From Mucilaginibacter sp. 14171R-50 (GTDB taxonomy: Bacteria; Bacteroidota; Bacteroidia; Sphingobacteriales; Sphingobacteriaceae), in assembly GCF_010093045.1 (NCBI RefSeq), contig NZ_CP048115.1:434001-498000 (forward strand): a stretch of 64,000 nucleotides of DNA, in the 5' to 3' direction. The notes below the pieces were generated by a model. That model had not been told where the DNA came from and did not search any database. It worked only from the letters and a program-made list of their open reading frames with translations. The position numbers and the translations under genes are program-made. Of this stretch, positions 34,937 to 58,372 are shown piece by piece (position 1 is the stretch's first letter; every line of letters starts with the position of its first letter).

Positions 34937-35026
34937 GGCTTAAATAAAAAAGTTTTTAGGGTAATTGGTTGAGTGATTGAAGGGACGGTGCAAAAACATA
35001 GGAGTTATGAAACATGTTCCCCACCC

Positions 35027-35052
35027 GTCATTGCAAGGAACGAAGCAATCTC
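35027..35052 (+). repeat. GTCATTGC...GCAATCTC repeat, solo arm
   Basis: GTCATTGCAAGGAACGAAGC followed by AATCTC. It is one arm of the dispersed repeat family that also occurs at 42245-42270, at 48993-49021/49375-49404 (around a GIY-YIG gene) and at 56788-56886 (complete hairpin). Confidence 0.8.
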
Positions 35053-42209: not shown

Positions 42210-42270
42210 TGATCGGAGATTAGTTTCTATCGAAAATTAGCAACGTCATTGCGAGGAATGAAGCAATCTC
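42190..42270. repeat. Two repeat-family pieces between recJ and lptB
   Basis: 42190-42225 has TTAGAGATTAGTGAATAGTG and GATCGGAGATTAG words of the TTAGTGATCGG vocabulary. 42245-42270 is a solo arm GTCATTGCGAGGAATGAAGC followed by AATCTC of the other dispersed family. They lie side by side, so different families accumulate in the same spacers. Confidence 0.75.
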
Positions 42271-47330: not shown

Positions 47331-48478
47331 AAAATGCGTTAGTGTGGTTTTGCCGGATAGCTGTTGGGCTGCTGTTCATTTTTTCGGGGCTGATAAAGGC
47401 AAACGACCCTCTGGGTTTCTCGTACAAGCTTGAAGAATACTTCGAGGTATTTCACATAACTTGGCTAAACGGGTTTGCATTAAGCTTGTCGGTTTTACTT
47501 TGCGCGCTGGAAATGATATTGGGTTTTGCCCTGCTTGTTGGCGTGCGTGCTGTAAAAGTAGTTTGGGGCTTGCTGCTGCTTATTATCTTTTTCGGTTTCC
47601 TTACCTTTTATTCGGCTTACTTTAAAGTGGTGCAAACCTGCGGTTGCTTTGGCGATGCCATACCGCTTACTCCCTGGCAATCCTTTATTAAAGACATGAT
47701 ATTGCTGCTGCTGGTGTTGGTGCTGTTTATCAACCGTAAAAGCATAAAACCATTAACCAACGCCAAAACCGGCGACAAGCTGTTACTTGGCGCGGCTATA
47801 GTATCAATAGGTTTTGGCCTGTATACTTACAATTTTTTACCGGTGATAGATTTTCTGCCCTACAAGATCGGCGCTAATATCCTGGAAGAAATGAAGACCC
47901 CGCCGGATGCTGTACCGGACGAGTTTGAGATCAACTACAAGCTTATCAACAAAAAAACAAAGGAAACAAAAACCATGACCGATAAGGAATACCTGAAATC
48001 GGGCATATGGAAGGATGCCAATTGGCAGGTACAGGGCAACCCCGAAAGCCGCCTGGTTAAAAAAGGGTTTGAACCCAAAATACGCGACCTGAACATTCAG
48101 GATGCGCAGGGTAATAATTATAACCAGGAATTATTGTCCAGCCCATTCTATAGTCTTTGGATAGTAGCGTACAATCTTGACGATACTAACGCTGATGCTG
48201 TAAACCGTAGCAACGCGTTAGCTGCAACCCTTATTCAGAATTACAACACACGCGTTATATTTTTAACTTCCAACGCTCCCGAGGGCGCCCAAAAATTTGC
48301 AAAAGAACATAAACTTGTGAGCGAGTTATTTTATGCCGACGGCGTACCGCTGAAAACTATGGTGCGTTCTAACCCGGGTATTATCCTGCTAAAAAATGGC
48401 ACCGTTATCAATAAATGGCATTTTCATAACATGCCTAAGTACGATGAGCTGGTTAAAAATTACCTGAGTAAGCAATAA
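47327..48478 (+). CDS. BT_3928-like MauE/DoxX-type membrane protein with thioredoxin-like C-terminus
   Basis: A 383-residue protein. The first ~150 residues have four hydrophobic helices with the MauE/DoxX-like start FCRIAVGLLFIFSGLIKAND and the cysteine pair in QTCGCFGDAIPLTPWQSF, as in MauE-type proteins that carry disulfides across the membrane. The C-terminal ~200 residues are exported and thioredoxin-like in their last half (SNAPEGAQKFAKEHKLVSEL, GIILLKNGTVINKW). In Bacteroidota this family sits next to DUF1599. It overlaps DUF1599 by 4 bp and aroK by 1 bp. A redox role is inferred. Confidence 0.8.
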   Translation: MKNALVWFCRIAVGLLFIFSGLIKANDPLGFSYKLEEYFEVFHITWLNGFALSLSVLLCALEMILGFALLVGVRAVKVVWGLLLLIIFFGFLTFYSAYFKVVQTCGCFGDAIPLTPWQSFIKDMILLLLVLVLFINRKSIKPLTNAKTGDKLLLGAAIVSIGFGLYTYNFLPVIDFLPYKIGANILEEMKTPPDAVPDEFEINYKLINKKTKETKTMTDKEYLKSGIWKDANWQVQGNPESRLVKKGFEPKIRDLNIQDAQGNNYNQELLSSPFYSLWIVAYNLDDTNADAVNRSNALAATLIQNYNTRVIFLTSNAPEGAQKFAKEHKLVSELFYADGVPLKTMVRSNPGIILLKNGTVINKWHFHNMPKYDELVKNYLSKQ

Positions 48479-48987
48479 TGGGTTTAATATTTTTAGTTGG
48501 ATTTATGGGCTGCGGCAAAACATCATGGGGCCGTAAACTGGCCGCAGGGTTAGGGTACGATTTCATCGATCTTGACCATACGCTCGAGGCTAAAGTAGGC
48601 TCTACCGTAGCTGAGTATTTCGCATCACACGGCGAAACCGCGTTTCGAAACCTGGAAAGCGAAATATTAAAAACAACTGCATATCCCCAAAATACAATTG
48701 TATCTACCGGAGGTGGCTTGCCTTGCTTTTTTGACAACATGGCTTGGATGAATAGCCATGGGCAAACCCTTTACATACAATTATCGCCAAAGGCATTAGC
48801 TAATCGTTTAGAAAATGCTAAAACCCCGCGCCCTGTATTGCAAGGCAAAAAAGGCGACGAACTGGTAACATTCATCGAACACAAATTAGCCGAACGCGAA
48901 GGCTTTTACCTAAAAGCTACACATATTGTTGATGGGATGGATATGAGCGTTGAAAAGTTGATTGGGATAATAAACGTTAATATTTAG
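48478..48987 (+). CDS. aroK: Shikimate kinase
   Basis: A 169-residue P-loop kinase that phosphorylates shikimate in the aromatic pathway. Walker A is GFMGCGKTSWGRKL, the shikimate-binding Asp is in IDLDHTLEAKVGSTVAEYFA (in part) and the GGG loop is VSTGGGLPCF. The Arg of RLENAKTPRPVLQG belongs to the lid. Length is typical. It is the last gene of the DUF1599-BT_3928-aroK operon, with a one-base stop/start overlap. Confidence 0.95.
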   Translation: MGLIFLVGFMGCGKTSWGRKLAAGLGYDFIDLDHTLEAKVGSTVAEYFASHGETAFRNLESEILKTTAYPQNTIVSTGGGLPCFFDNMAWMNSHGQTLYIQLSPKALANRLENAKTPRPVLQGKKGDELVTFIEHKLAEREGFYLKATHIVDGMDMSVEKLIGIINVNI

Positions 48988-48992
48988 CCTAT

Positions 48993-49404
48993 TGTCATTG
49001 CGAGCATAGCGTGGCAATCTCAGCATATCCGCGGGCTGCTTTTAATCGTGCCACCCTGCACTTAGATCATTCCATTCAGGATTTTCCAAAACAATTAAAT
49101 CAATTTTCTTTTTTCTCGATCCGGCCTTTATTTGCTTTTCGCGTGCGATAGCATCTTGTACCCATTGAAATTCTTCATAATAAACAAGTTTGTTGCATTG
49201 ATACTTTGCCGAAAAACCTTGATTAGCCTTCCCTTTATGTTGAATGATACGTTCAAGGATATTATTTGTGACACCCGTATAAAGTACGTTATTAGAATTG
49301 TTGGTAATAATATAAACGTAATATTGGTGAATTTTCATCTGAACAATAATTAGGGAAGCGCTTATCTGTCCTATGAGATTGCCACGCTACGCTCGCAATG
49401 ACAT
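48993..49404. mobile_element. Candidate GIY-YIG element: 412 bp with 29-bp terminal inverted repeats
   Basis: TGTCATTGCGAGCATAGCGT...GGCAATCTC (48993-49021) and its reverse complement at 49376-49404 (GAGATTGCCACGCTACGCTC...GACA) match except for one base. Between them lies one gene, a GIY-YIG nuclease. TAT directly outside the left end and TAT directly outside the right end could be a 3-bp target duplication. The same repeat occurs without the gene at 35027, 42245 and 56788. Mobility is inferred from structure alone. Confidence 0.6.
49042..49338 (-). CDS. GIY-YIG nuclease domain protein
   Basis: A 98-residue single GIY-YIG domain of the UPF0213/YhbQ-like kind. The GIY position is YVY (residues 7-9), the YIG position YTG (20-22), followed by VTNNILERIIQHKG with the catalytic Arg30. 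AREKQIKAGSRKKKIDLI carries the metal-binding Glu. GIY-YIG domains cut DNA with one active-site metal. Small stand-alone members are multi-copy in many Bacteroidota and their role is unknown. It is the only gene between 29-bp inverted repeats. Confidence 0.9.
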   Translation of the reverse strand: MKIHQYYVYIITNNSNNVLYTGVTNNILERIIQHKGKANQGFSAKYQCNKLVYYEEFQWVQDAIAREKQIKAGSRKKKIDLIVLENPEWNDLSAGWHD

Positions 49405-49427
49405 ATTGGAGAAAGACTTTAGTAATT

Positions 49428-49937
49428 CTACCTCAAATAAACAGCATCTTCCTGTCCGGCTTCGTCTAAAACAACATCAACGTGCTCTTTTATCACGGTT
49501 GAAAGGGCTACGCCTGCATAGTCTGTAGTCACCGGGAAATTTTTGTGGTTACGGTCGATGAGTACTACGGTACGCAGCTTTTTTAACGGCACATCCAGGA
49601 ACACACCAAAGCCATAGGCCAGTGTTTTGCCGCTGTTCAGCACATCGTCAACCAGAACGATGACCTTGTTACTGCACTCCTGCACGTCAAAGTTGGTTTT
49701 GGCCTGTAGCCGGCTGCTTTGTTTATCCAGTTCGATGGTTAGCAGGCGGCTTTTAAACGGCGCTATCTTATCCAAAACCAGTTTCAAACGCCCGGCTACA
49801 TGGTTCCCGCGCGGGAGGATACCGGCTATCAGTATTTCCTTCTCATCAAAATTATCTTCCAATATCTGGTACGCAATACGGTCTATTTTTTGCTGTATTT
49901 GCTGCTGGTTTAATATCAGTATCTTTTTATCAGACAT
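49428..49937 (-). CDS. pyrR: PyrR-like phosphoribosyltransferase
   Basis: A 169-residue type I phosphoribosyltransferase. The PRPP motif is VIVLVDDVLNSGKTLAYG, and RGNHVAGRLKLVLDKI and DRNHKNFPVTTDYAGVALSTVIKEH (in part) match the PyrR/uracil-phosphoribosyltransferase group. PyrR proteins salvage uracil and, in Gram-positives, control pyr attenuation; in Bacteroidota a regulatory role is unproven. Single gene. Confidence 0.85.
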   Translation of the reverse strand: MSDKKILILNQQQIQQKIDRIAYQILEDNFDEKEILIAGILPRGNHVAGRLKLVLDKIAPFKSRLLTIELDKQSSRLQAKTNFDVQECSNKVIVLVDDVLNSGKTLAYGFGVFLDVPLKKLRTVVLIDRNHKNFPVTTDYAGVALSTVIKEHVDVVLDEAGQEDAVYLR

Positions 49938-49960
49938 GGAGAGTTTGTTGAATATATAAG

Positions 49961-50046
49961 GTTGAACCGTTGTAAAGTTAAAGCGCTTTTGATATGTAAA
50001 TATAAGGAACGTTTCAATATTTTAACTTTCAAACGTTCCAACAACC
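49961..50046. repeat. Word-like spacer upstream of pyrR (GTTGAAA/TTTCAAC vocabulary)
   Basis: Left words GGTTGAACCGTTGTAAAGTT (49961-49980 region) and right words AACGTTTCAATATTTTAACTTTC, TTCCAACAACCTTTCAA (50007-50046) are approximate reverse complements. Same vocabulary as 19065-19155 and 46621-46790. Confidence 0.65.
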
Positions 50047-50048
50047 TT

Positions 50049-50450
50049 TCAATTTTTAACGTACGGATAATACACGAAGTTGGCCCCTTCGGGTACCACT
50101 ACAAACAGGCACATAAAATCGTTAGGGTTTTTGTAGGTGTTCATGAACCGCTCTTTCAGTTCGGCCTTGATGATGCCGCGCTCTATAAACTCCTCAATGG
50201 TTGAAGCATGAATGCTCCACTCGGTGTTTAGCTCGTTGCGGTCCAATATCATCTCGCCGAGTTTTATTTCGTGCTGATGGGCGATAAATATCGGTGTTGC
50301 CGACAAGCCTTCCACCATGATCTCGACAGCTACCTCCCGGATCGATTCATTAAAAAATTTAAGGTCTCGCTCTAAACTTACCAGCGGACTTTCCTTTTTG
50401 GGCTGTTGCTCCGCTCCCCTGTTTTCGTTAAAAAGTTCTTCGGTATCCAT
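50049..50450 (-). CDS. Conserved protein of unknown function
   Basis: A 133-residue protein with a charged N-terminus (NENRGAEQQPKKES) and a mixed alpha/beta body containing FNESIREVAVEIMVEGLSATPIFIAHQHEIKLGEMILDR (in part) and MCLFVVVPEGANFVYYPY. No signal peptide or membrane segment. No family name came to mind. It lies 6 bp after the gene with GFKPRF repeats and is probably co-transcribed and functionally linked with it. Confidence 0.65.
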   Translation of the reverse strand: MDTEELFNENRGAEQQPKKESPLVSLERDLKFFNESIREVAVEIMVEGLSATPIFIAHQHEIKLGEMILDRNELNTEWSIHASTIEEFIERGIIKAELKERFMNTYKNPNDFMCLFVVVPEGANFVYYPYVKN

Positions 50451-50456
50451 ATTACA

Positions 50457-51305
50457 CTATTCTTCAGGTGGTTTGGGTTTCGTGGTTTTGGCATTAAACC
50501 TCGGTTTGAAGCCAATTTTTGGTGTTGTGGGCGCTACAGGTTCTATAGGCCCACTTTCGTTTATCAACTTATCCTCCGCAGATTCGGTTTCTGCAGGTGC
50601 ATCCGTAGCTGCCGCGGGCTTAGGCGCCATTGTTTTCATGTTAAAGCGCGGCTTAAAGCCTGCAGGCTTTGTCGCTTCGGTTTGTTTAAGGTCCCCCGGT
50701 TCTTCCGTCTTTGGTTCCGCCTCAACCTTCTTTGTTTGTGGTGCATTACCCTGGGTCATTTTCATACTAAAGCGAGGCTTAAAACCAGCCGGCTTTGTAG
50801 CCGGGCCTTGTGTTTGCTTTTCTTCTTCTTCAGCATCTGTAGTACGTGGCGTGGCATCAGCGGCGGCTTGCATTGCCTCTTTCTCCTGTTGAAAGGGAGG
50901 AAGTTGGTCTCCAGCTGCTACAGCTGCGTTTACCTCTGGGGTAGCGGTTGCACTGTCATCCTGTGCGGCAACCTTTTGGTCGTTTGTTGCATCGGCAGCC
51001 TTGCCCATTCCGGGTTTAAACCTCGGTTTAAATCCAACGGATGGTGCCGGCACATTATCTGTTAATGTTTCAGCGATAGTTTGCTCTGCAAGTTTATTCT
51101 CTAAGTGTACCTTTTCAGGCTTTTGTTCAGGCGCAAGGTGATATTGAAGCCTTAATTTATTGAACCAGTATTTTTTGGTGTGGTCGAAACTTTTTTCGCC
51201 CATCTGGTTGAAGTGCTTTTCAAATTCAGCGTAAAGAGCCGGCTCTGCTGCCCGCAGGGCGACCAGGTCTATCCGCTTCCTGTTAAAAAACTCTTCGAAG
51301 GTCAT
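50457..51305 (-). CDS. Disordered protein with four GFKPRF motifs
   Basis: A 282-residue protein that I do not recognise. Residues 1-60 are a folded, charged region (MTFEEFFNRKRIDLVALRAA, HTKKYWFNKLRLQYHLAPE). The rest is low-complexity (Ala, Thr, Pro, Glu, Lys) and carries four near-identical motifs GFKPRF followed by basic residues (GFKPRFKPGM, GFKPRFSMKM, GFKPRFNMKT, GFKPRFNAKT). Spacing between motifs is irregular, with acidic linkers. Evenly conserved short motifs in a disordered chain suggest several binding sites for one partner, possibly membrane or nucleic acid. The following gene (6 bp away) may be the partner. Confidence 0.7.
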   Translation of the reverse strand: MTFEEFFNRKRIDLVALRAAEPALYAEFEKHFNQMGEKSFDHTKKYWFNKLRLQYHLAPEQKPEKVHLENKLAEQTIAETLTDNVPAPSVGFKPRFKPGMGKAADATNDQKVAAQDDSATATPEVNAAVAAGDQLPPFQQEKEAMQAAADATPRTTDAEEEEKQTQGPATKPAGFKPRFSMKMTQGNAPQTKKVEAEPKTEEPGDLKQTEATKPAGFKPRFNMKTMAPKPAAATDAPAETESAEDKLINESGPIEPVAPTTPKIGFKPRFNAKTTKPKPPEE

Positions 51306-51388
51306 TTTAAATAATTTGAAAATTTGTTGATTTGAAAATTTGAAAGTTGATAGTCATCTTCAAATTGCCGCATCTTCAAATTGCTTAA
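51306..51388. repeat. Word-like spacer (TTTGAAAATTTG vocabulary)
   Basis: AATTTGAAAATTTGTTGATTTGAAAATTTG words (in part) followed by TCTTCAAATTGCCGCATCTTCAAATTGC (in part), which is an approximate reverse complement. It lies between the DUF2442 gene and the GFKPRF gene. Confidence 0.6.
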
Positions 51389-51604
51389 TTACAAGGCCAC
51401 ATCCACATCCAGACTGTTAAAGTGGATGCCCTTGTCTGTTTGTGTCCAGTCCTCACGTTCATCGTCGGTAGCGTTCATTAGTTTGGGGAACCACTCCAGC
51501 GGGAAAGCCTGTTGCTTTCCATCTGCCTTTTCTACAAAAAGCAGTCCATTAGCAAAGGTTACCTTAACTTTTTTTTCCTGTTTGCTTGACGAAAATAAAG
51601 GCAT
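51389..51604 (-). CDS. DUF2442 family protein
   Basis: A 71-residue protein: KVKVTFANGLLFVEKADGKQQAFPLEWFPKLMNA (in part), then REDWTQTDKGIHFNSLDVDVAL. The pattern of a short beta-strand, LxWFPxL and the terminal W...xxxGIHxxxLDxDVxL is the DUF2442 signature, a small family found alone or with toxin-antitoxin-like partners. Function unknown. It precedes the GFKPRF gene, separated by an 83-bp word-like spacer. Confidence 0.8.
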   Translation of the reverse strand: MPLFSSSKQEKKVKVTFANGLLFVEKADGKQQAFPLEWFPKLMNATDDEREDWTQTDKGIHFNSLDVDVAL

Positions 51605-51699
51605 AATTGAAAATTCTAAATTCTAAACCCTAAATCCTAAAGCAGCTCTCGTTATTTTAAAATAAATCCGAAATCGAAACTCCGAAATTCGAAATCGTC
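51605..51699. repeat. Spacer with TTCTAAAT and CCGAAATCG words
   Basis: AATTCTAAATTCTAAACCCTA and AATCCTAAA are followed by AATCCGAAATCGAAACTCCG and AATTCGAAATCG. These are two sets of short direct word repeats in the yebC/DUF2442 spacer, without a strong palindrome. Confidence 0.55.
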
Positions 51700-52425
51700 T
51701 TATTCCGCCATATTATGATAAACCGCCTGCACATCATCATCCTCTTCAAGTCGGTCGATGATCTTGAAAACGTCTACAGCCTGCTCTTCGGTTACCGGCG
51801 TGGTTGATTGCGCAATACGCTCCAACTTGGCCGATTTGGTTTCGATACCCTTTTCTTCCAAAGTTTTCTGCATCTTTCCAAAATCCTCAAATGCAGTGTG
51901 TATCACGGCAATATCGTTTCCTTCCTCGTCTGCCTCCACAAAAAGATCTTCGAGCCCGGCGTCTATCAATTCAAATTCAAGTTCTTCCAGGTCGCGGTCG
52001 CCCGGGTCAAAGGTAAATACTGATTTACGGCTGAAGATAAAATCCAGCGACCCGGTTTTGCCCAACGTGCCGCCGTATTTTGTAAAATAGCTGCGCACAT
52101 TAGCCACCGTACGGTTCAGGTTATCAGTGGCAGTTTCAACCAGTATGGCTACACCATGCTGCGCGTAGCCTTCGTACACAATTTCTTCGTAATCCTTTTC
52201 GTCGCGACTGGTAGCACGCTTTATAGCGGCTTCTACCCTGTCTTTAGGCATATTAACCGCTTTGGCATTTTGCACCGCGGTGCGCAGGCGCGAGTTGGTG
52301 TTAGGGTCGCCGCCGCCTGCTTTAACCGCCATTACAATCTCTTTGCCCAAGCGGGTAAACTGCACGGCCATTTTAGCCCAACGCTTAAACTTTCTTTCTT
52401 TACGGAATTCAAATGCTCTTCCCAT
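51700..52425 (-). CDS. yebC: YebC/PmpR-family transcriptional/translation regulator
   Basis: A 241-residue protein starting MGRAFEFRKERKFKRWAKMA with GGGDPNTNSRLRTAVQNAKAVNMPKDRVEAAIKRA (in part), the typical N-terminal domain, and EDDDVQAVYHNMAE at the end. YebC/PmpR proteins bind DNA or act on stalled ribosomes; recent work ties some to proline-rich peptide synthesis. The start codon lies 4 bases after the G-rich arm of a palindromic element. Confidence 0.92.
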   Translation of the reverse strand: MGRAFEFRKERKFKRWAKMAVQFTRLGKEIVMAVKAGGGDPNTNSRLRTAVQNAKAVNMPKDRVEAAIKRATSRDEKDYEEIVYEGYAQHGVAILVETATDNLNRTVANVRSYFTKYGGTLGKTGSLDFIFSRKSVFTFDPGDRDLEELEFELIDAGLEDLFVEADEEGNDIAVIHTAFEDFGKMQKTLEEKGIETKSAKLERIAQSTTPVTEEQAVDVFKIIDRLEEDDDVQAVYHNMAE

Positions 52426-52531
52426 ATTACCCCCCAGCCCCCTAAAGGGGGAGCCGGAATTTATTTTTTATTTTTTGTTTATACCATTATAAAGCCTACT
52501 TGTTCCCCCCTTCGGGGGGTAGGGGGCTCTA
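52425..52531. repeat. GCCCCC/GGGGGC palindromic element, copy 3
   Basis: One arm (ATTACCCCCCAGCCCCCTAA and on, 52425-52452) abuts the yebC start. The other (TTCCCCCCTTCGGGGGGTAG and on, 52503-52531) ends on the stop codon (TAG on the minus strand) of the SDR gene. The element occupies essentially the whole 103-bp spacer. As in copies 1 and 2, the sense strand reads CTTTAGGGGG-type sequence just before the downstream start. Confidence 0.88.
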
Positions 52532-53479
52532 AATTACATTTTTTAAGTTAGTTAGCATATCCTCCGTGATCTTTGCCAGGTCGTACTCCAAAGCCCAGCC
52601 CCAATCCTGTTGTGCCTGTGTATCATCTATTGATTTTGGCCAGCTATCGGCAATTGCCTGCCGGGGGTCATTATCGGCATAGCTCATTTCAAAGCCCGGT
52701 ATATGCTTTTTAATTTCTTCGGCCAGTTGCTCTGGCGTAAAACTTATACCCGCCAGGTTATAGCTCGACCGGATGCTCAGGTTTTCTGCAGGGGCATCCA
52801 TCAGGCTGATGGTAGCGCGTATGGCATCGTCCATATACATCATGGGCAAAGCCGTTTGTGCCGACAGGAAACCCTGGTATTTTCCTTTCTTTAATGCTTC
52901 ATGGAAAATATGTACGGCGTAATCCGTGGTCCCGCCTCCCGGATTAGCGCGCCATCCTATAAGGCCCGGGTAACGCAAACTACGTACATCCACGCCATAT
53001 TTAGTGTGGTAATACTCGCACCAGCGTTCGCCGGCCAGCTTGCTAAAGCCATAAACCGTGTTAGGGTCCATAATACAATACTGCGGTGTATTGTACTGCG
53101 GCGAATGCGGCCCAAATACTGCTATTGAGCTTGGCCAAAATATTTTTGAAGTTTTAAATTCTACGGCAAAATCAAGCACATGCAGTAAGCCGGTCATATT
53201 TAAATCCCAGGCCATTTTTGGTTTTTGCTCGCCTACTGCCGATAATATTGCGGCCAGCAGGTAAACCTGCGTGGGGCGGTGCTTATCAAACAGATGGTGC
53301 AGGTTATCCTTATCAAGAACGTTAGCAAACTCAAACGGGCCGCTATTACGGATAGCATAATTCGGGCTGTTTATATCAGATGCTATAACGTTTTCGGCGC
53401 CGTGTATATTTCTTAAAGCAGTTACCAATTCGGTGCCAATTTGCCCATTGGCGCCAATCACTAAAATCTTTTCGCTCAT
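52529..53479 (-). CDS. NAD-dependent epimerase/dehydratase (L-threonine dehydrogenase-like SDR)
   Basis: A 316-residue extended short-chain dehydrogenase from the ATG at 53477-53479. The NAD motif is GANGQIGTELV; the catalytic Tyr-Lys is in VYGFSKLAGE. PGGGTTDYAVHIFHEAL and the C-terminal DDTQAQQDWGW region are typical of the L-threonine 3-dehydrogenase/UDP-glucose-epimerase-like branch. Threonine oxidation to 2-amino-3-oxobutyrate is the likely reaction; a sugar epimerase cannot be excluded. A TACCTTTG -7 box lies at 53498-53505. Confidence 0.85.
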   Translation of the reverse strand: MSEKILVIGANGQIGTELVTALRNIHGAENVIASDINSPNYAIRNSGPFEFANVLDKDNLHHLFDKHRPTQVYLLAAILSAVGEQKPKMAWDLNMTGLLHVLDFAVEFKTSKIFWPSSIAVFGPHSPQYNTPQYCIMDPNTVYGFSKLAGERWCEYYHTKYGVDVRSLRYPGLIGWRANPGGGTTDYAVHIFHEALKKGKYQGFLSAQTALPMMYMDDAIRATISLMDAPAENLSIRSSYNLAGISFTPEQLAEEIKKHIPGFEMSYADNDPRQAIADSWPKSIDDTQAQQDWGWALEYDLAKITEDMLTNLKNVI

Positions 53480-53497
53480 GCAATCGCGGTTTGGGTA

Positions 53498-53505
53498 CAA
53501 AGGTA
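53498..53505 (-). promoter_or_regulatory. -7 box of the SDR gene promoter
   Basis: TACCTTTG on the minus strand, 18 bases before the SDR start codon. The TTTG box at the expected -33 position is absent, so it is a partial match. Confidence 0.55.
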
Positions 53506-53711
53506 AATTTTTTTGCCTGAACCCGAATTTTAAGCATCAAAGAATTGACAAAATAGCCTTAAATACACCCATAAACCCTATATATGCATTATATTATTTT
53601 CGATACATATGATTTACGCCGTTATTTTTTGCATACTAAATTAGTAGACATTTTGGCAAAAAAATCGCATATTTGCCATTTAGTTTACATATTCATAATT
53701 TAAAACAAAAA

Positions 53712-54719
53712 ATGAAAGTCGCAGTTGTAGGTGCCACAGGATTGGTTGGCACTAAAATGTTGCAGGTTCTTGCCGAACGCAACTTCCCCGTTACAGAATT
53801 AATTCCCGTAGCTTCCGCTAAAAGTATTGGTAAAGAGATCACTTTTAAGGGTAAGCAGTTTAAGGTGGTTTCTGTTGAGGATGCGATTAAACAAAAGCCC
53901 GATGTAGCTATTTTTAGCGCGGGTGGCAGTACTTCTTTAGAGCAGGCACCGTTATTCGCAGCTGCGGGCATAACCGTTATTGATAACTCTTCGGCCTGGC
54001 GTATGGATCCAACCAAAAAACTGGTTGTGCCCGAAGTAAACGCCGATGTACTTACCGCAGAGGATAAGATCATTGCCAACCCAAATTGCTCGACCATACA
54101 AATGGTAGTGGCGTTAAAACCCCTGCACGATAAATACAAGATCAAACGCGTTGTAGTATCTACCTATCAATCGGTAACAGGTACAGGCGTTAAGGCTGTA
54201 GACCAGCTTTTTAACGAGCGTAAAGGTATAGACGGGCCGAAGGTTTATCCTTACACTATCGACCTGAACGTTATTCCTCAAATTGATGTGTTTACTGAGA
54301 ACGGTTACACCAAAGAGGAAATGAAGATGATATTGGAAACCAAAAAAATAATGGGCGACGAAACTATCAAAGTAACCGCAACCACCGTGCGTATACCGGT
54401 TATGGGTGGTCATTCGGAATCTGTGAACATCGAGTTTTTGCACGATTTTGACCTGAGCGAGGTACGCGAGCTATTGGCCAATTCGCCGGGTATTGTAGTG
54501 GTTGATGATACTGCTAACCTGAAATACCCAATGCCGCTTGATGCGCACGACAAGGACGAGGTGTTTGTTGGCCGCCTTCGCCGCGACGAAACGCAGGACA
54601 ACACCCTTAACTGCTGGATAGTATCTGATAACCTGCGTAAAGGTGCGGCAACTAACGCCGTACAAATTGCAGAGTACTTAGCTGCCAAAAATTTGATAGG
54701 GCAGGCTGTAGCTGTTTAG
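53712..54719 (+). CDS. asd: Aspartate-semialdehyde dehydrogenase
   Basis: A 335-residue enzyme that makes aspartate semialdehyde for lysine, threonine and methionine synthesis. The start is the ATG at 53712 (MKVAVVGATGLVGTKMLQVL); a TTG 39 bases upstream is rejected. The Rossmann motif is VGATGLVG, the catalytic Cys126 is in ANPNCSTIQMV and the substrate-binding segment is TVRIPVMGGHSESVNIEF. The length fits the family. It is a single gene, divergent from the SDR gene, with a 212-bp upstream region. Confidence 0.95.
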   Translation: MKVAVVGATGLVGTKMLQVLAERNFPVTELIPVASAKSIGKEITFKGKQFKVVSVEDAIKQKPDVAIFSAGGSTSLEQAPLFAAAGITVIDNSSAWRMDPTKKLVVPEVNADVLTAEDKIIANPNCSTIQMVVALKPLHDKYKIKRVVVSTYQSVTGTGVKAVDQLFNERKGIDGPKVYPYTIDLNVIPQIDVFTENGYTKEEMKMILETKKIMGDETIKVTATTVRIPVMGGHSESVNIEFLHDFDLSEVRELLANSPGIVVVDDTANLKYPMPLDAHDKDEVFVGRLRRDETQDNTLNCWIVSDNLRKGAATNAVQIAEYLAAKNLIGQAVAV

Positions 54720-54813
54720 AGATTAGAGGTTTGTGATCAGAGATTAGTTCTTTGCACTGTAACAAATATATTTAATAGGGATGGTCGAAAGATTATCCCT
54801 ATTTTTATTTTGT

Positions 54814-55593
54814 ATGAAACGTTTATTGCTCCTTGCTGTATTTGCAACTATTTTGTCGGTTCCTGCAATAGCGCAGAACGGCAAAATTGAAGCCGACCTT
54901 TTACGATCGTTTACAAAGCTGGAATATTGGGACCATCAACAACGGAAAGGCGTTGACGGAGCAAGCGATTCGTTAGAGGCCGCTAATGATGTGTTTGAAA
55001 CGAAGTTAAAGGGCTATGCAATTAACATCCCATCTACGATAGCCGAGCCTTTCACTGCTTTGAAAAAAGCGCACCTGGATATTTTTACCTCAAAAGATGG
55101 TTTGTTCAGGATATATTCATGGGAAACCTGGATGGGTGGTACGATGCGCGATTTTTCGAACCTGATGCAATACAAAACCGGGCAAAAAACAAATGCTATA
55201 TTGTACACTACCACACAAGATGTTTACATACCGTTTTACAGCAACCTTTACACATTTAAAAATGGTGCAAAAACCTATTATCTGGGCGTCTATAACGGCA
55301 TCTATTCAACAAAGGATGTAAGTACCGGTATTAAATTATTTACGATAGAAAATGGTAGGTTAAACGACAATGTTAAACTTATTAAAACTCAATCGGGCCT
55401 ACGCAACAAAATCAGCTACAATTACGATTTTTTCTCAGTCGTGGATATAGCTGTCGAATTACGGCCAACTATTACCTTTGATGCCGCAACCAATACCATT
55501 AAAATGCCCCTGGTAAACAACAAAGGCAAAATAACTGATAAGTTTATTCTCTATAAATTTAATGGCAATTACTTTGAAAGGGTTAAAAGCTAA
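54814..55593 (+). CDS. Exported protein of unknown function
   Basis: A 259-residue protein from the ATG at 54814, which provides a clean signal peptide (MKRLLLLAVFATILSVPAIAQ). An upstream ATG at 54781 only lengthens the hydrophobic start. The mature part has LLRSFTKLEYWDHQQRKGVDG, SWETWMGGTMRDFSNLMQYK and beta-rich stretches such as AKTYYLGVYNGIYSTKDV. No lipobox and no recognised family. A periplasmic beta-rich protein is the safest description. Confidence 0.65.
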   Translation: MKRLLLLAVFATILSVPAIAQNGKIEADLLRSFTKLEYWDHQQRKGVDGASDSLEAANDVFETKLKGYAINIPSTIAEPFTALKKAHLDIFTSKDGLFRIYSWETWMGGTMRDFSNLMQYKTGQKTNAILYTTTQDVYIPFYSNLYTFKNGAKTYYLGVYNGIYSTKDVSTGIKLFTIENGRLNDNVKLIKTQSGLRNKISYNYDFFSVVDIAVELRPTITFDAATNTIKMPLVNNKGKITDKFILYKFNGNYFERVKS

Positions 55594-55671
55594 TTTAATT
55601 TTACTAAAACTATAAAAACGGCCACTTGTAGTTAATATACATTGAAGTATAATCTATAAAAAATTACAGTT

Positions 55672-56220
55672 ATGGCTGATTTAAGTAATAAAAAAGTAGC
55701 AATGCTTACTGAAGAAGGATTTGAGCAGGTTGAATTAACCAGCCCTAAAGAAGCATTGGAAGCCGCGGGCGCAACCGTGCATATCATATCACCAAAAAGC
55801 GGCAAGATCAAAGCCTGGGACAAGGATAAATGGGGCATAGAAGTTGACGTAGACAAAAACCTGAGCGATGTTAGTCCGGATGATTACGACGCACTGGTGC
55901 TGCCCGGGGGCGTATTAAACCCGGATAAATTGCGACAGAATAAAGATGCCGTGGCCTTTGCATCGGCCTTTTTAGATGAAGGCAAACCACTTGCGGCCAT
56001 TTGCCATGGCCCACAGTTGCTGATAGAAACGAATATGCTGAAAGGCCGTCGCCTCACCTCCTATCCTTCCCTGCAAACCGACCTTAAGAATGCCGGCGCA
56101 GATTGGGTTGACGAAGAAGTTGTTACTGACAGCGGGTTGGTAACAAGCCGCCGCCCTGCCGACCTTGACGCCTTTAACCAAAAAACAATTGAGGAAATTG
56201 CCGAAGGCATTCATGTTTAA
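55672..56220 (+). CDS. DJ-1/PfpI-family protein (type 1 glutamine amidotransferase-like)
   Basis: A 182-residue protein with Cys111 at the nucleophile elbow (LAAICHGPQLLIE) and the acidic residue in TEEGFEQVELTSPK. This matches the YhbO/PfpI branch of the DJ-1 superfamily, reported as proteases, glyoxalases or deglycases that act on methylglyoxal adducts. Full length (YhbO has 172). It stands alone and converges with the SnoaL-like gene. Confidence 0.88.
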   Translation: MADLSNKKVAMLTEEGFEQVELTSPKEALEAAGATVHIISPKSGKIKAWDKDKWGIEVDVDKNLSDVSPDDYDALVLPGGVLNPDKLRQNKDAVAFASAFLDEGKPLAAICHGPQLLIETNMLKGRRLTSYPSLQTDLKNAGADWVDEEVVTDSGLVTSRRPADLDAFNQKTIEEIAEGIHV

Positions 56221-56227
56221 ATAAAAG

Positions 56228-56256
56228 ACCATGCGTCATTACTTATGGCGCATGGT
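56228..56256. terminator. Hairpin between convergent genes
   Basis: ACCATGCG (56228-56235) and CGCATGGT (56249-56256) pair perfectly, between the DJ-1 gene and the SnoaL-like gene. Flanking T runs are weak, so termination activity is moderate at best. Confidence 0.5.
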
Positions 56257-56276
56257 AATATTGTTAAGCAGTCACC

Positions 56277-56732
56277 TTACTCGGGGCAGTTACCTGTACG
56301 GCGGGTATCAACAATATAAATGATCTTCCAGCCGGCGGCGGTTTTCATTAACTGGTAAAAATCAACCCCGCAATGACTAAACTTTTCGCCTACATAAAAT
56401 TTGTAAGGCGTCCACGCGCTGGCCAGGTCCCCGTCTACTTTAATATCGCCCCAGGTGATACGCTCGTCGTATATTTCTTTATGAGGGGTGCCAACTTGTT
56501 TTACAAACTCATCGGCTTTTTCTGTCAGCAGCACAGTAGAGCCATCCCTTTTGTTCACCACACTTTGCAGCACCATATCTTTATGAAAGGTTGACCGCAG
56601 CATAGTGCTATCGCCCTTACGCATGCCGTCAAACATGGTGGTAATGGTTTTTTTGATATCGTCCTGATCGGTTTGGCAAAAAGCAGGCGCGCTTAAAGCC
56701 AAAATCAGCGTCGCAAGTAACAAGGTTTTCAT
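56277..56732 (-). CDS. Exported NTF2/SnoaL-like protein
   Basis: A 151-residue protein with a signal peptide (MKTLLLATLILALSAPAFCQ) and a cone-shaped NTF2-like fold pattern: IKKTITTMFDGMRKGDSTMLRSTFHKD (in part), then DLASAWTPYKFYVGEKFSHCGVDFYQLMKTAAGWKIIYIVDTRR (in part). Such exported domains often bind small ligands or serve as immunity or assembly partners. No catalytic residues can be assigned. Single gene. Confidence 0.78.
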   Translation of the reverse strand: MKTLLLATLILALSAPAFCQTDQDDIKKTITTMFDGMRKGDSTMLRSTFHKDMVLQSVVNKRDGSTVLLTEKADEFVKQVGTPHKEIYDERITWGDIKVDGDLASAWTPYKFYVGEKFSHCGVDFYQLMKTAAGWKIIYIVDTRRTGNCPE

Positions 56733-56787
56733 AATTTGTGTTGATTGGTTGAGGCAATTTAAATAAAAGAAATCAAATTGTTGATCA

Positions 56788-56886
56788 CTATGTCATTGCG
56801 AGCGTAGCGTGGCAATCTCTTTAGGACAAGTGTACATTTTGCATAAAGAGATTGCTTTGTCGCTATCGCTCCGCGCAATGACATAG
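56788..56886. repeat. Complete GTCATTGCGAG hairpin without nuclease gene
   Basis: CTATGTCATTGCGAGCGTAG and on through GGCAATCTCTTTA (from 56788) is mirrored by TAAAGAGATTGCTTTGTCGC and on through GCGCAATGACATAG (to 56886). It has the same ends as the GIY-YIG element but a 20-30 base centre in place of the gene, so it looks like a gene-less (non-autonomous) copy. Short TA sequences lie directly outside both ends. Confidence 0.85.
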
Positions 56887-56889
56887 GAT

Positions 56890-56930
56890 AGAAGAAAAAC
56901 AAAGAAGCCTCACATTTCTGCAAGGCTTCT
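56890..56930 (-). terminator. Terminator of dnaA
   Basis: On the minus strand AGAAGCCT-loop-AGGCTTCT is followed by TTGTTTTTCTTC. It lies about 18 bases after the dnaA stop codon. Confidence 0.75.
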
Positions 56931-56947
56931 GTATATCTTCATGTCAA

Positions 56948-58372
56948 TTACGACATTTTTAGTTTCTTTTGGATATCGGCCACGTAGCCCTTGAATTTTT
57001 TATCGGTGTCAATAAGGTCTTCAACAGTTTGGCAGGCATAGATAACGGTAGAATGGTCGCGGCCGCCAAAAAAGTTACCGATAGATTTTAATGAGCTTTT
57101 GGTGTGTGCCTTGGCCAGGTACATCGATATCTGGCGGGCCTGAACGATTTCGCGTTTGCGGGTTTGCGATTTTACCATTTCAATCGGCACTTCAAAATAC
57201 TCGCAAACCAAACTCTGAATGTATTCCATTGAAATTTCCTTAGCCGAATTTTTTACAAAATTCTTCAGCATCTGCTTGGCCAGGTTCAGGTCTATCTCTT
57301 TACGGTTAAGGGTTGATTGAGCCAATAACGACACCATGGCGCCTTCCAACTCGCGTACATTGTTATCGATGTTGTGGGCTACATATTCTACTACATCATT
57401 AGATAACTCGATACCATCCTGATAGATCTTGTTTTTTAGGATGGCCATACGGGTTTCCAGGTCTGGGATCTGCAGATCGGCAGAAAGCCCCCATTTAAAA
57501 CGCGACAGCAGGCGCTCTTCTAAACCCGCCAGATCTTTGGGAGCTTTATCCGAGGTAATGATCAGTTGCTTACCGCTTTGGTGCAGGTGGTTAAATATGT
57601 GGAAGAAGAAATCCTGCGTTTTTTCTTTACCGGCAAAGTTGTGTACATCATCCATGATCAGTACATCAATAGCCTGGTAAAAGTTCACAAAATCGTTTAT
57701 GTTATTGTGTTTTAAAGCATCAACAAATTGCTGGGTAAATTTTTCGCAGCTAACGTATAGTACAAGTTTATCGGGCAGGGTGCGTTTAATTTCGTTACCA
57801 ATAGCCTGGGCCAGGTGTGTTTTACCAAGGCCTACCCCTCCGTATATCATTAACGGGTTAAAGGATGTACCACCGGGTTTGGCAGCCACCGCGTAACCTG
57901 CAGAACGCGCTAAGCGGTTGCAATCGCCTTCAACAAAGTTTTCGAAGGTATAGTTGCGGTTTAGCTGCGGGTCTACATTAAGCTTTTTAAGGCCCGGGAT
58001 TACAAACGGGTTCTTAATATCCTTATTTATAGAAATAGGTATTGGCATAGACTGATTTTTAGATTCAGCACCATTCCCGTTCGAGGGCATGTTGGTAGTG
58101 TATGGCTTGCTTGATGATTGCTCAACAACAATGTTATACTCTAAACGACCTTCGTCGCCCAATTGTTTTTTTATTGTTTTGCGCAGCAAGCCAACGTAAT
58201 GCTCTTCCAGCCACTCGTAAAAGAATAAACTTGGTACTTGTATCGTTAAAACGCTACCCTCCATACGCAAAGCTTTTATTGGCTCAAACCATGTTTTAAA
58301 GCTTTGTGCCGGTATGTTATCTTTTATGATCTGAAGGCAACTATTCCAAACGTTAGTACAAGTTTTTTCCAT
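56948..58372 (-). CDS. dnaA: Chromosomal replication initiator protein DnaA
   Basis: A 474-residue AAA+ initiator. The N-terminal domain has NVWNSCLQIIKDNIPAQSFKTWFEPIKAL (in part), then a linker. The AAA+ domain has Walker A GGVGLGKTHLAQAIGNE and Walker B VLIMDDVHNF, and the sensor region is LSRFKWGLSADLQIPDLETR (in part). The C-terminal DNA-binding domain has the signature GGRDHSTVIYACQTVEDL. It opens the origin and is also a transcription regulator. Length is ordinary. The gene faces left and its upstream region is AT-rich. Confidence 0.97.
   Translation of the reverse strand: MEKTCTNVWNSCLQIIKDNIPAQSFKTWFEPIKALRMEGSVLTIQVPSLFFYEWLEEHYVGLLRKTIKKQLGDEGRLEYNIVVEQSSSKPYTTNMPSNGNGAESKNQSMPIPISINKDIKNPFVIPGLKKLNVDPQLNRNYTFENFVEGDCNRLARSAGYAVAAKPGGTSFNPLMIYGGVGLGKTHLAQAIGNEIKRTLPDKLVLYVSCEKFTQQFVDALKHNNINDFVNFYQAIDVLIMDDVHNFAGKEKTQDFFFHIFNHLHQSGKQLIITSDKAPKDLAGLEERLLSRFKWGLSADLQIPDLETRMAILKNKIYQDGIELSNDVVEYVAHNIDNNVRELEGAMVSLLAQSTLNRKEIDLNLAKQMLKNFVKNSAKEISMEYIQSLVCEYFEVPIEMVKSQTRKREIVQARQISMYLAKAHTKSSLKSIGNFFGGRDHSTVIYACQTVEDLIDTDKKFKGYVADIQKKLKMS

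Follow-up and report, generated by a model that had tools for sequence, protein, structure and literature searches.

Tagged inverted repeats around small GIY-YIG nuclease genes of Mucilaginibacter, and the match between repeat type and protein subfamily

The repeats of the CGTC-tagged REP superfamily carry the tag CGTC or TGTC (CCTC too), have AT as their first stem pairs and, in the sections of the survey cited here, occur mostly as head-to-head dimers with a stem of 8-9 bp and a loop of 4-5 (Di Nocera et al. 2013, PMC3733652). The same sections report CGTC-type REPs in five phyla, equate Neisseria CGTC-1 with dRS3, state that CGTC REPs 'apparently lack a dedicated transposase', and add that no tyrosine transposase gene had such repeats on its flanks (PMC3733652). 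The repeats described below resemble this superfamily, as those sections define it, in several respects: the arms in the window (the whole 64,000-nucleotide stretch analysed here, positions 434001-498000 of a single 4,535,041-base contig from the Mucilaginibacter genome G000) and elsewhere in its genome have the tag TGTC or CGTC, unpaired at one end, head-to-head dimers predominate among those listed, and several Proteobacterial arms fit, with stems of 8 bp in Neisseria and 9 bp in rhizobia. The window arms fold with an outer stem of 5 bp, in contrast to the 8-9 bp given by the survey (PMC3733652), and the window repeat is therefore filed here as CGTC-like and not as a member of the CGTC REPs.

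A nuclease gene flanked by a genome-dispersed repeat that also forms many gene-less dimers is an arrangement which the window locus shares with the REPIN-RAYT system, or REPtron. RAYTs are mostly inherited vertically, and the gene considered here looks so too. The two differ in the enzyme, which is a GIY-YIG protein here and an HUH tyrosine transposase there, and in the tag, which is YGTC (TGTC or CGTC) here and GTAG there. GIY-YIG nucleases as partners of REPs appear in no literature title among the matches listed.

Site-specific single-stranded GIY-YIG nucleases of the Ssn family, reportedly presented in Nature Communications in 2025, are said to have cognate genomic repeats in Neisseria, where Ssn is linked with transformation. 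The preliminary description of the present locus knew of no established account of such a system, which is doubtful given this paper; the paper may already cover part of the present finding. Like Ssn, the window gene encodes a small stand-alone GIY-YIG protein with an intact motif, it has putative cognate arms in many copies in its genome (14 with a T and 97 with a C before GTC, by exact pattern; the reversed control pattern gave 0), and a Neisseria relative has dRS3-type repeats on both sides. A defining activity of Ssn nucleases is reportedly the site-specific cutting of single-stranded DNA only.

The window cassette and its nuclease

The GIY-YIG gene and its two inverted 29-bp arms are as first described (Table 1): the arms differ by one mismatch and are tagged TGTC, i.e., T precedes GTC (T tag). 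Within the window, TGTCATTGCGAG with at most one mismatch has 5 copies, where 0.23 are expected and 0 of 100 shuffles reach 5. The cassette is placed between convergent genes. Rfam gave nothing at gathering score within 48400-57500, and PADLOC gave no match.

Table 1. Cassette, neighbouring genes and gene-less repeats in window coordinates
Feature	Position	Strand	Basis
Shikimate-kinase-like ORF (by eye), left border of site	48478..48987	+	ORF list, neighbour comparison
Left cassette arm, 3' side of gene, T tag: TGTCATTGCGAG..GGCAATCTC	48993..49021	+	repeat search
GIY-YIG nuclease gene, 98 aa	49042..49338	-	PF01541 E 1.6e-17, family alignments
Right cassette arm, 5' side of gene, T tag	49375..49403	-	repeat search
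PyrR-like ORF (by eye), right border of site	49428..49937	-	ORF list, neighbour comparison
Solo arm, C tag, type of second cassette	35026..35052	+	tag reading
Solo arm, C tag, type of second cassette	42244..42270	+	repeat search, tag reading
Left arm of gene-less T-tag hairpin (REPIN-like)	56791..56819	+	repeat search, fold
Right arm of T-tag hairpin, 3' side of DnaA-like ORF (by eye)	56848..56883	-	fold

Residues Y9, Y20, G22, R30, E67 and N86 vary little or not at all in the family alignments, and we take them to be the catalytic set. An alignment-free structure model was of poor quality, at pLDDT 50.9, and was discarded; the alignment-based model reached pLDDT 93.6. The closest solved structure to this model is UPF0213 BH0048 (Z 7.4, rmsd 5.3, 78 aligned), followed by Slx1 (Z 7.0, rmsd 3.6, 97 aligned) and by the I-TevI and UvrC domains (Z 5-5.5), and UPF0213 proteins (1zg2, 1ywl) are also the best solved relatives by profile. 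We know of no repeats associated with UPF0213 proteins or with Slx1. The nuclease gene is under purifying selection: dN/dS was usable in 14 of 18 pairs and lay at 0.05-0.13 in 12 of them; the other two, both very close pairs, gave 0.23 and 0.34. An in-frame stop lies within the matched stretch in 13 of 90 copies, and extending the frame over the whole length brings this to 17 of 91, possibly an overcount. A phage collection yielded 12 records at 36-38% identity, none of which reached 80% cover.

The PF01541 profile has 9 matches in this genome. A second cassette lies at G000:C1:1874281-1874684, with its gene (at 1874396, 101 aa) between C-tag arms, and a third GIY-YIG match, at 2025186, has one in-frame stop and lies between GTCATTTCGA arms. 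Three of the nine matches, at G000:C1:1633968-1634525 (L018), represent one whole and one split tandem copy of another small GIY-YIG gene, which adjoins a tRNA-like sequence (by eye) and has no tagged arms. Solo arms are indeed present at 35027 and 42245, where single copies of the window repeat had been proposed; their C tag assigns them to the type of the second cassette instead. Five further C-type arms stand in one orientation with ~103-bp spacing at G000:C1:1958330-1958769.

Gene-less hairpins and dimers

The complete gene-less hairpin that the preliminary description had pointed out (56791-56883) is real: its DNA fold has a z-score of -9.1. Both of its arms carry the T tag of the cassette, and G145, a relative, has a T-tag hairpin in the corresponding position. 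Single window arms have an unremarkable folding z-score. The hairpin shares TAGGACA with the inner ends of the window cassette, but on one side only. At one of the hairpin sites of G145, the genome of the window has a different tagged element, so the occupants of hairpin sites change.

Among close neighbours within the listed matches (100 of 112 arms), at least 26 arm pairs have their tags outward, 0 have them inward and at least 6 are on the same strand. The spacers of the 26 listed tags-outward pairs measure 30-33 bp (13 pairs) or 42-47 bp (13 pairs); the two classes differ by about one DNA helix turn.

Ten hairpins found in 6 of 149 congener genomes are the two inner ends of the window cassette joined together: their T-tag arms enclose CTCATAGGACA at one end and TGCTGAG at the opposite end, with CGGATATGCTGAG in 8 of the 10. 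Comparison of the flanks places them at nine distinct sites, one of which is common to two genomes. Either form, the gene-less dimer or the cassette, may have come first. This exact form of the hairpin was absent from the genome of the window, and a comparison of inner tails in 10 of its dimers found the tail pair of the second cassette in only 2.

Arms and protein subfamilies in the genus and beyond

Some match to the protein at E 1e-5 or better is present in all 149 genomes of the genus survey, and not all of these matches belong to the window subfamily. Taking the best inverted match between 400-bp flanks with a cut-off score of 35, we found such arms at 66 of 90 genus loci; regions lying 500-900 bp off gave 0 of 87, and mixed pairs gave 2 of 87. 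Direct repeats reach the same score at 35 of 90 loci because the arms occur in arrays. The arm core points outward on both sides of the gene at 63 of 91 loci vs 0 of 29 pyrR control loci. The tags at the 91 loci are T on both sides in 55, C on both sides in 15, mixed in 2, present on one side in 16 and missing in 3.

The arrangement extends beyond the genus. In a plasmid collection (34 records, several of them 'plasmids' of chromosome size), 12 of the 16 loci chosen for comparison score at least 34 for inverted arms, far controls scoring at most 26, and the inverted pair is absent from the remaining four, in Aeromonas, Photobacterium and two Rhizobium loci. The N. gonorrhoeae homolog, 39% identical, has several dRS3-type arms on each side, in both directions; Azospirillum arms read CGTCATCCCCGCG.., those of Shinella and Neorhizobium CGTCATCCTCGGG.., and other arm types occur in Rhizobium, Sinorhizobium, Sphingobium, Novosphingobium, Spirosoma and Planktothrix. 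The Neisseria, Azospirillum and rhizobial arms resemble classical CGTC REPs. A set of 80 named loci of many phyla was found by protein motif alone. Here 34 of 78 score at least 35 vs 0 of 74 far regions, and in 30 of these 34 the arms are tagged at their ends with GTCA or GTCG; 44 of 78 fall under the cut-off, many of them still with a tag on both sides. An outward tagged motif is present on both sides at 56 of 77 named loci vs 3 of 72 farther out, the exact 9-mer GTCATTGCG occurs at 36 vs 1 far, and inward-facing motifs lie near the gene at 23 of 77, as dimers would give. Since far regions may be more coding, the pyrR control of the genus survey is the fairer one.

The type of arm tracks the protein subfamily. 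On the nuclease tree (98 columns, with 46 of 88 inner branches lacking resolution), the T/C tag label of the 70 labelled loci among 91 changes once, the minimum and mean over 1000 shuffles being 10 and 13.8, and the arm core letters change twice. On a wider tree the core letters require 15 changes vs 25.7 when shuffled (118 of 186 loci labelled), and outside the genus 11 vs 17.6, so that they follow this tree less strictly than the genus tree. The 62 loci that combine equal tags with the same core all have the right tag, whereas arms drawn at random from each genome's own repeats would give the right tag at 27.6 of them on average and at no more than 41 in 100,000 draws, a contrast that is inflated because these loci were chosen for equal tags. 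A better test of tag specificity is provided by genomes with both subfamilies. There are nine of them among the 91 loci, with both loci fully labelled in five (G000, G023, G036, G050 and G053), and in all five T goes with one subfamily and C with the second. The pattern also holds in G042 and G078, where one arm is unlabelled; the second copy in G143 is an exception that has a T-tag arm and a C-tag arm, and for the second copy in G024 the motif gave no tag label. The numbers of arms point the same way, uncorrected for kinship: with a close gene defined as a match at E about 1e-32 or better, and incomplete genomes counted too, the median number of T-tag arms is 20 in the 56 genomes that have one vs 2 in the 93 that do not, and the corresponding medians for C-tag arms are 16 and 7. 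Exceptions are 10 of the 93 genomes, which hold at least 20 T-tag arms, and 6 of the 56, which hold fewer than 5.

It could be supposed that the repeats simply gather in any gene-poor spacer, for example as terminators, and that a small gene came to lie among them by chance. The positions of the cassette between convergent genes and of the hairpin 3' of a gene are usual places for repeats and would suit this explanation, but the pyrR controls (0 of 29), the match of tags to protein subfamily inside one genome and the recurrence of the same gene-arm pairing in many phyla argue against it, and we consider it very unlikely. The association of the repeats with the nuclease, and its specificity, are well supported. 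We estimate a probability of roughly two in three that the cassette is the gene-bearing form of a palindromic repeat family of the CGTC/TGTC-tagged REP kind and that its GIY-YIG protein is a nuclease which recognises the tag and foot of the repeat. The best reading of the sequences is that this nuclease would be the cognate enzyme of CGTC-type REPs, in a REPtron in which a GIY-YIG protein replaces RAYT. Two ideas of the preliminary description gain support here. Gene-bearing and gene-less forms of one element are indicated by the inverted flanks at 66 of 90 loci, the tag-protein match and the ten joined-end hairpins, and the analogy with REP/RAYT by the flanking arms, the same match, the tags-outward dimers and the gene-less joined ends.

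Mobility, site history and possible role

The nuclease gene looks mostly vertically inherited, with movement over longer times, since both flanks are common to 9 of 9 locus pairs at 90% amino acid identity or more, all of them in different genomes; the share is 19 of 33 at 80% and 28 of 128 at 75%. No recent copy of the gene within a genome was found among the 91 loci, which do not include every copy (the best pair has 75.5% amino acid identity). Target duplications were sought as matching outer 2-6-mers, with three offsets, at the 72 loci with both arms (15 tests) and at 13 dimers from the genome of the window, and no convincing case emerged. Matches at k=2 next to the tag are in excess, 22 vs 11.5 expected, because of the arms' own symmetric AT context; at k=3 one base out there are 4 matches, one of them at the window, vs 0.94 (p 0.008 uncorrected), which fails correction for 15 tests, and all remaining tests gave p 0.06 or more. 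The TAT that had been noted on both outer sides is there at the window cassette and is lacking at the same-site ortholog in G145, and as a general flank it finds no backing in the 72 loci. Unlike an insertion sequence, therefore, the cassette has no convincing target duplication and no recent near-identical copies at the 91 loci; with both flanks shared in the nine closest pairs as well, the autonomous mini-element of the preliminary description, taken as an active transposon, is not supported.

Another possibility is a homing-like element, in which the nuclease would cut gene-less repeat copies and recombination would copy the gene in between the arms. The inner ends of the cassette match gene-less dimers, and so the arms could guide recombination, a match which by itself gives no direction; the structure model resembles the GIY-YIG domain of Slx1 and, less closely, that of the homing enzyme I-TevI. 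Against this, no genome among the 91 loci has two recent gene copies, even though some genomes carry more than 200 arms, which makes homing improbable.

The host site of the window cassette, between aroK and pyrR, has been gained and lost. The preliminary description proposed looking for empty sites in relatives, and they exist: among 31 genomes (those of the 30 best PyrR matches and G042), 11 have an empty site with the neighbours 14-130 bp apart, 4 have the gene, 7 have another insert and 9 are without assignment. Two of the four genes are damaged, in G042 by a stop and in G049 by a frame break. The PyrR tree is too poorly resolved to show whether the insertion was a single gain; the fewest changes are 3. 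In five relatives (L085, L089, L094, L097 and L098) the site holds an insert of 550-839 bp with two small ORFs (by eye), perhaps a toxin-antitoxin pair, and in L100 and L101 it holds a longer insert.

Purifying selection and vertical inheritance at many sites would also be expected of a domesticated nuclease with an Ssn-like host function, one that cuts single-stranded repeats and thereby tunes DNA uptake or genome rearrangement, the spread of the repeats being a by-product of recombination. The dRS3-type arms on both sides of the gonococcal homolog and the link of Ssn with transformation speak for such a function. Broken copies (13 of 90) and polymorphic sites, however, suit a dispensable element better, and gene-less dimers that consist of the two cassette ends suit the spread of a single unit, so that we regard a purely host-serving role as rather unlikely, if a serious competitor.

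If the nuclease is the cognate enzyme of the repeats, we infer that it would cut them and promote their spread as follows. A repeat that becomes single-stranded, at a replication fork or in incoming DNA, would fold, and the nuclease would nick the folded repeat at the tag. The hairpin unit could then be copied or excised, and host repair would insert it at another place, because GIY-YIG enzymes hydrolyse DNA and are not known to join strands. Short gene-less dimers would spread in this way, and the gene copy would move rarely and be inherited vertically, as in REPIN-RAYT. The odds seem to us even that GIY-YIG proteins constitute a second phylum-spanning class of REP-spreading enzymes, with one subfamily per CGTC/TGTC repeat family, acting through hydrolytic cutting and host repair. 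Such a class would give bacterial repeats a spreading route without a transposase, and the nuclease may turn out to be the enzyme that one large class of bacterial repeats has long lacked. The pairing of repeats and nucleases with subfamily-specific tags names a candidate partner for each repeat family and offers many matched enzyme-site pairs for biochemistry. If true, GIY-YIG partners would fill the enzyme gap left by the 2013 survey of CGTC REPs, as its cited sections present it (PMC3733652).

The only Y1 transposase match in this genome is a RAYT-like gene with a 210-aa frame at G000:C1:641157-641372 (L295). Its flanks have an inverted match of their own and no GTCATT or GTCATTGCGAG arms, and mobilisation of the arms by this gene is thus not supported. 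A further tagged repeat family, with sequences like GTCATCCTGAG.., was seen in the aroK-pyrR gap of L083 and in L286 (G000:C1:2698533-2699704), and it sits where relatives hold other repeats.
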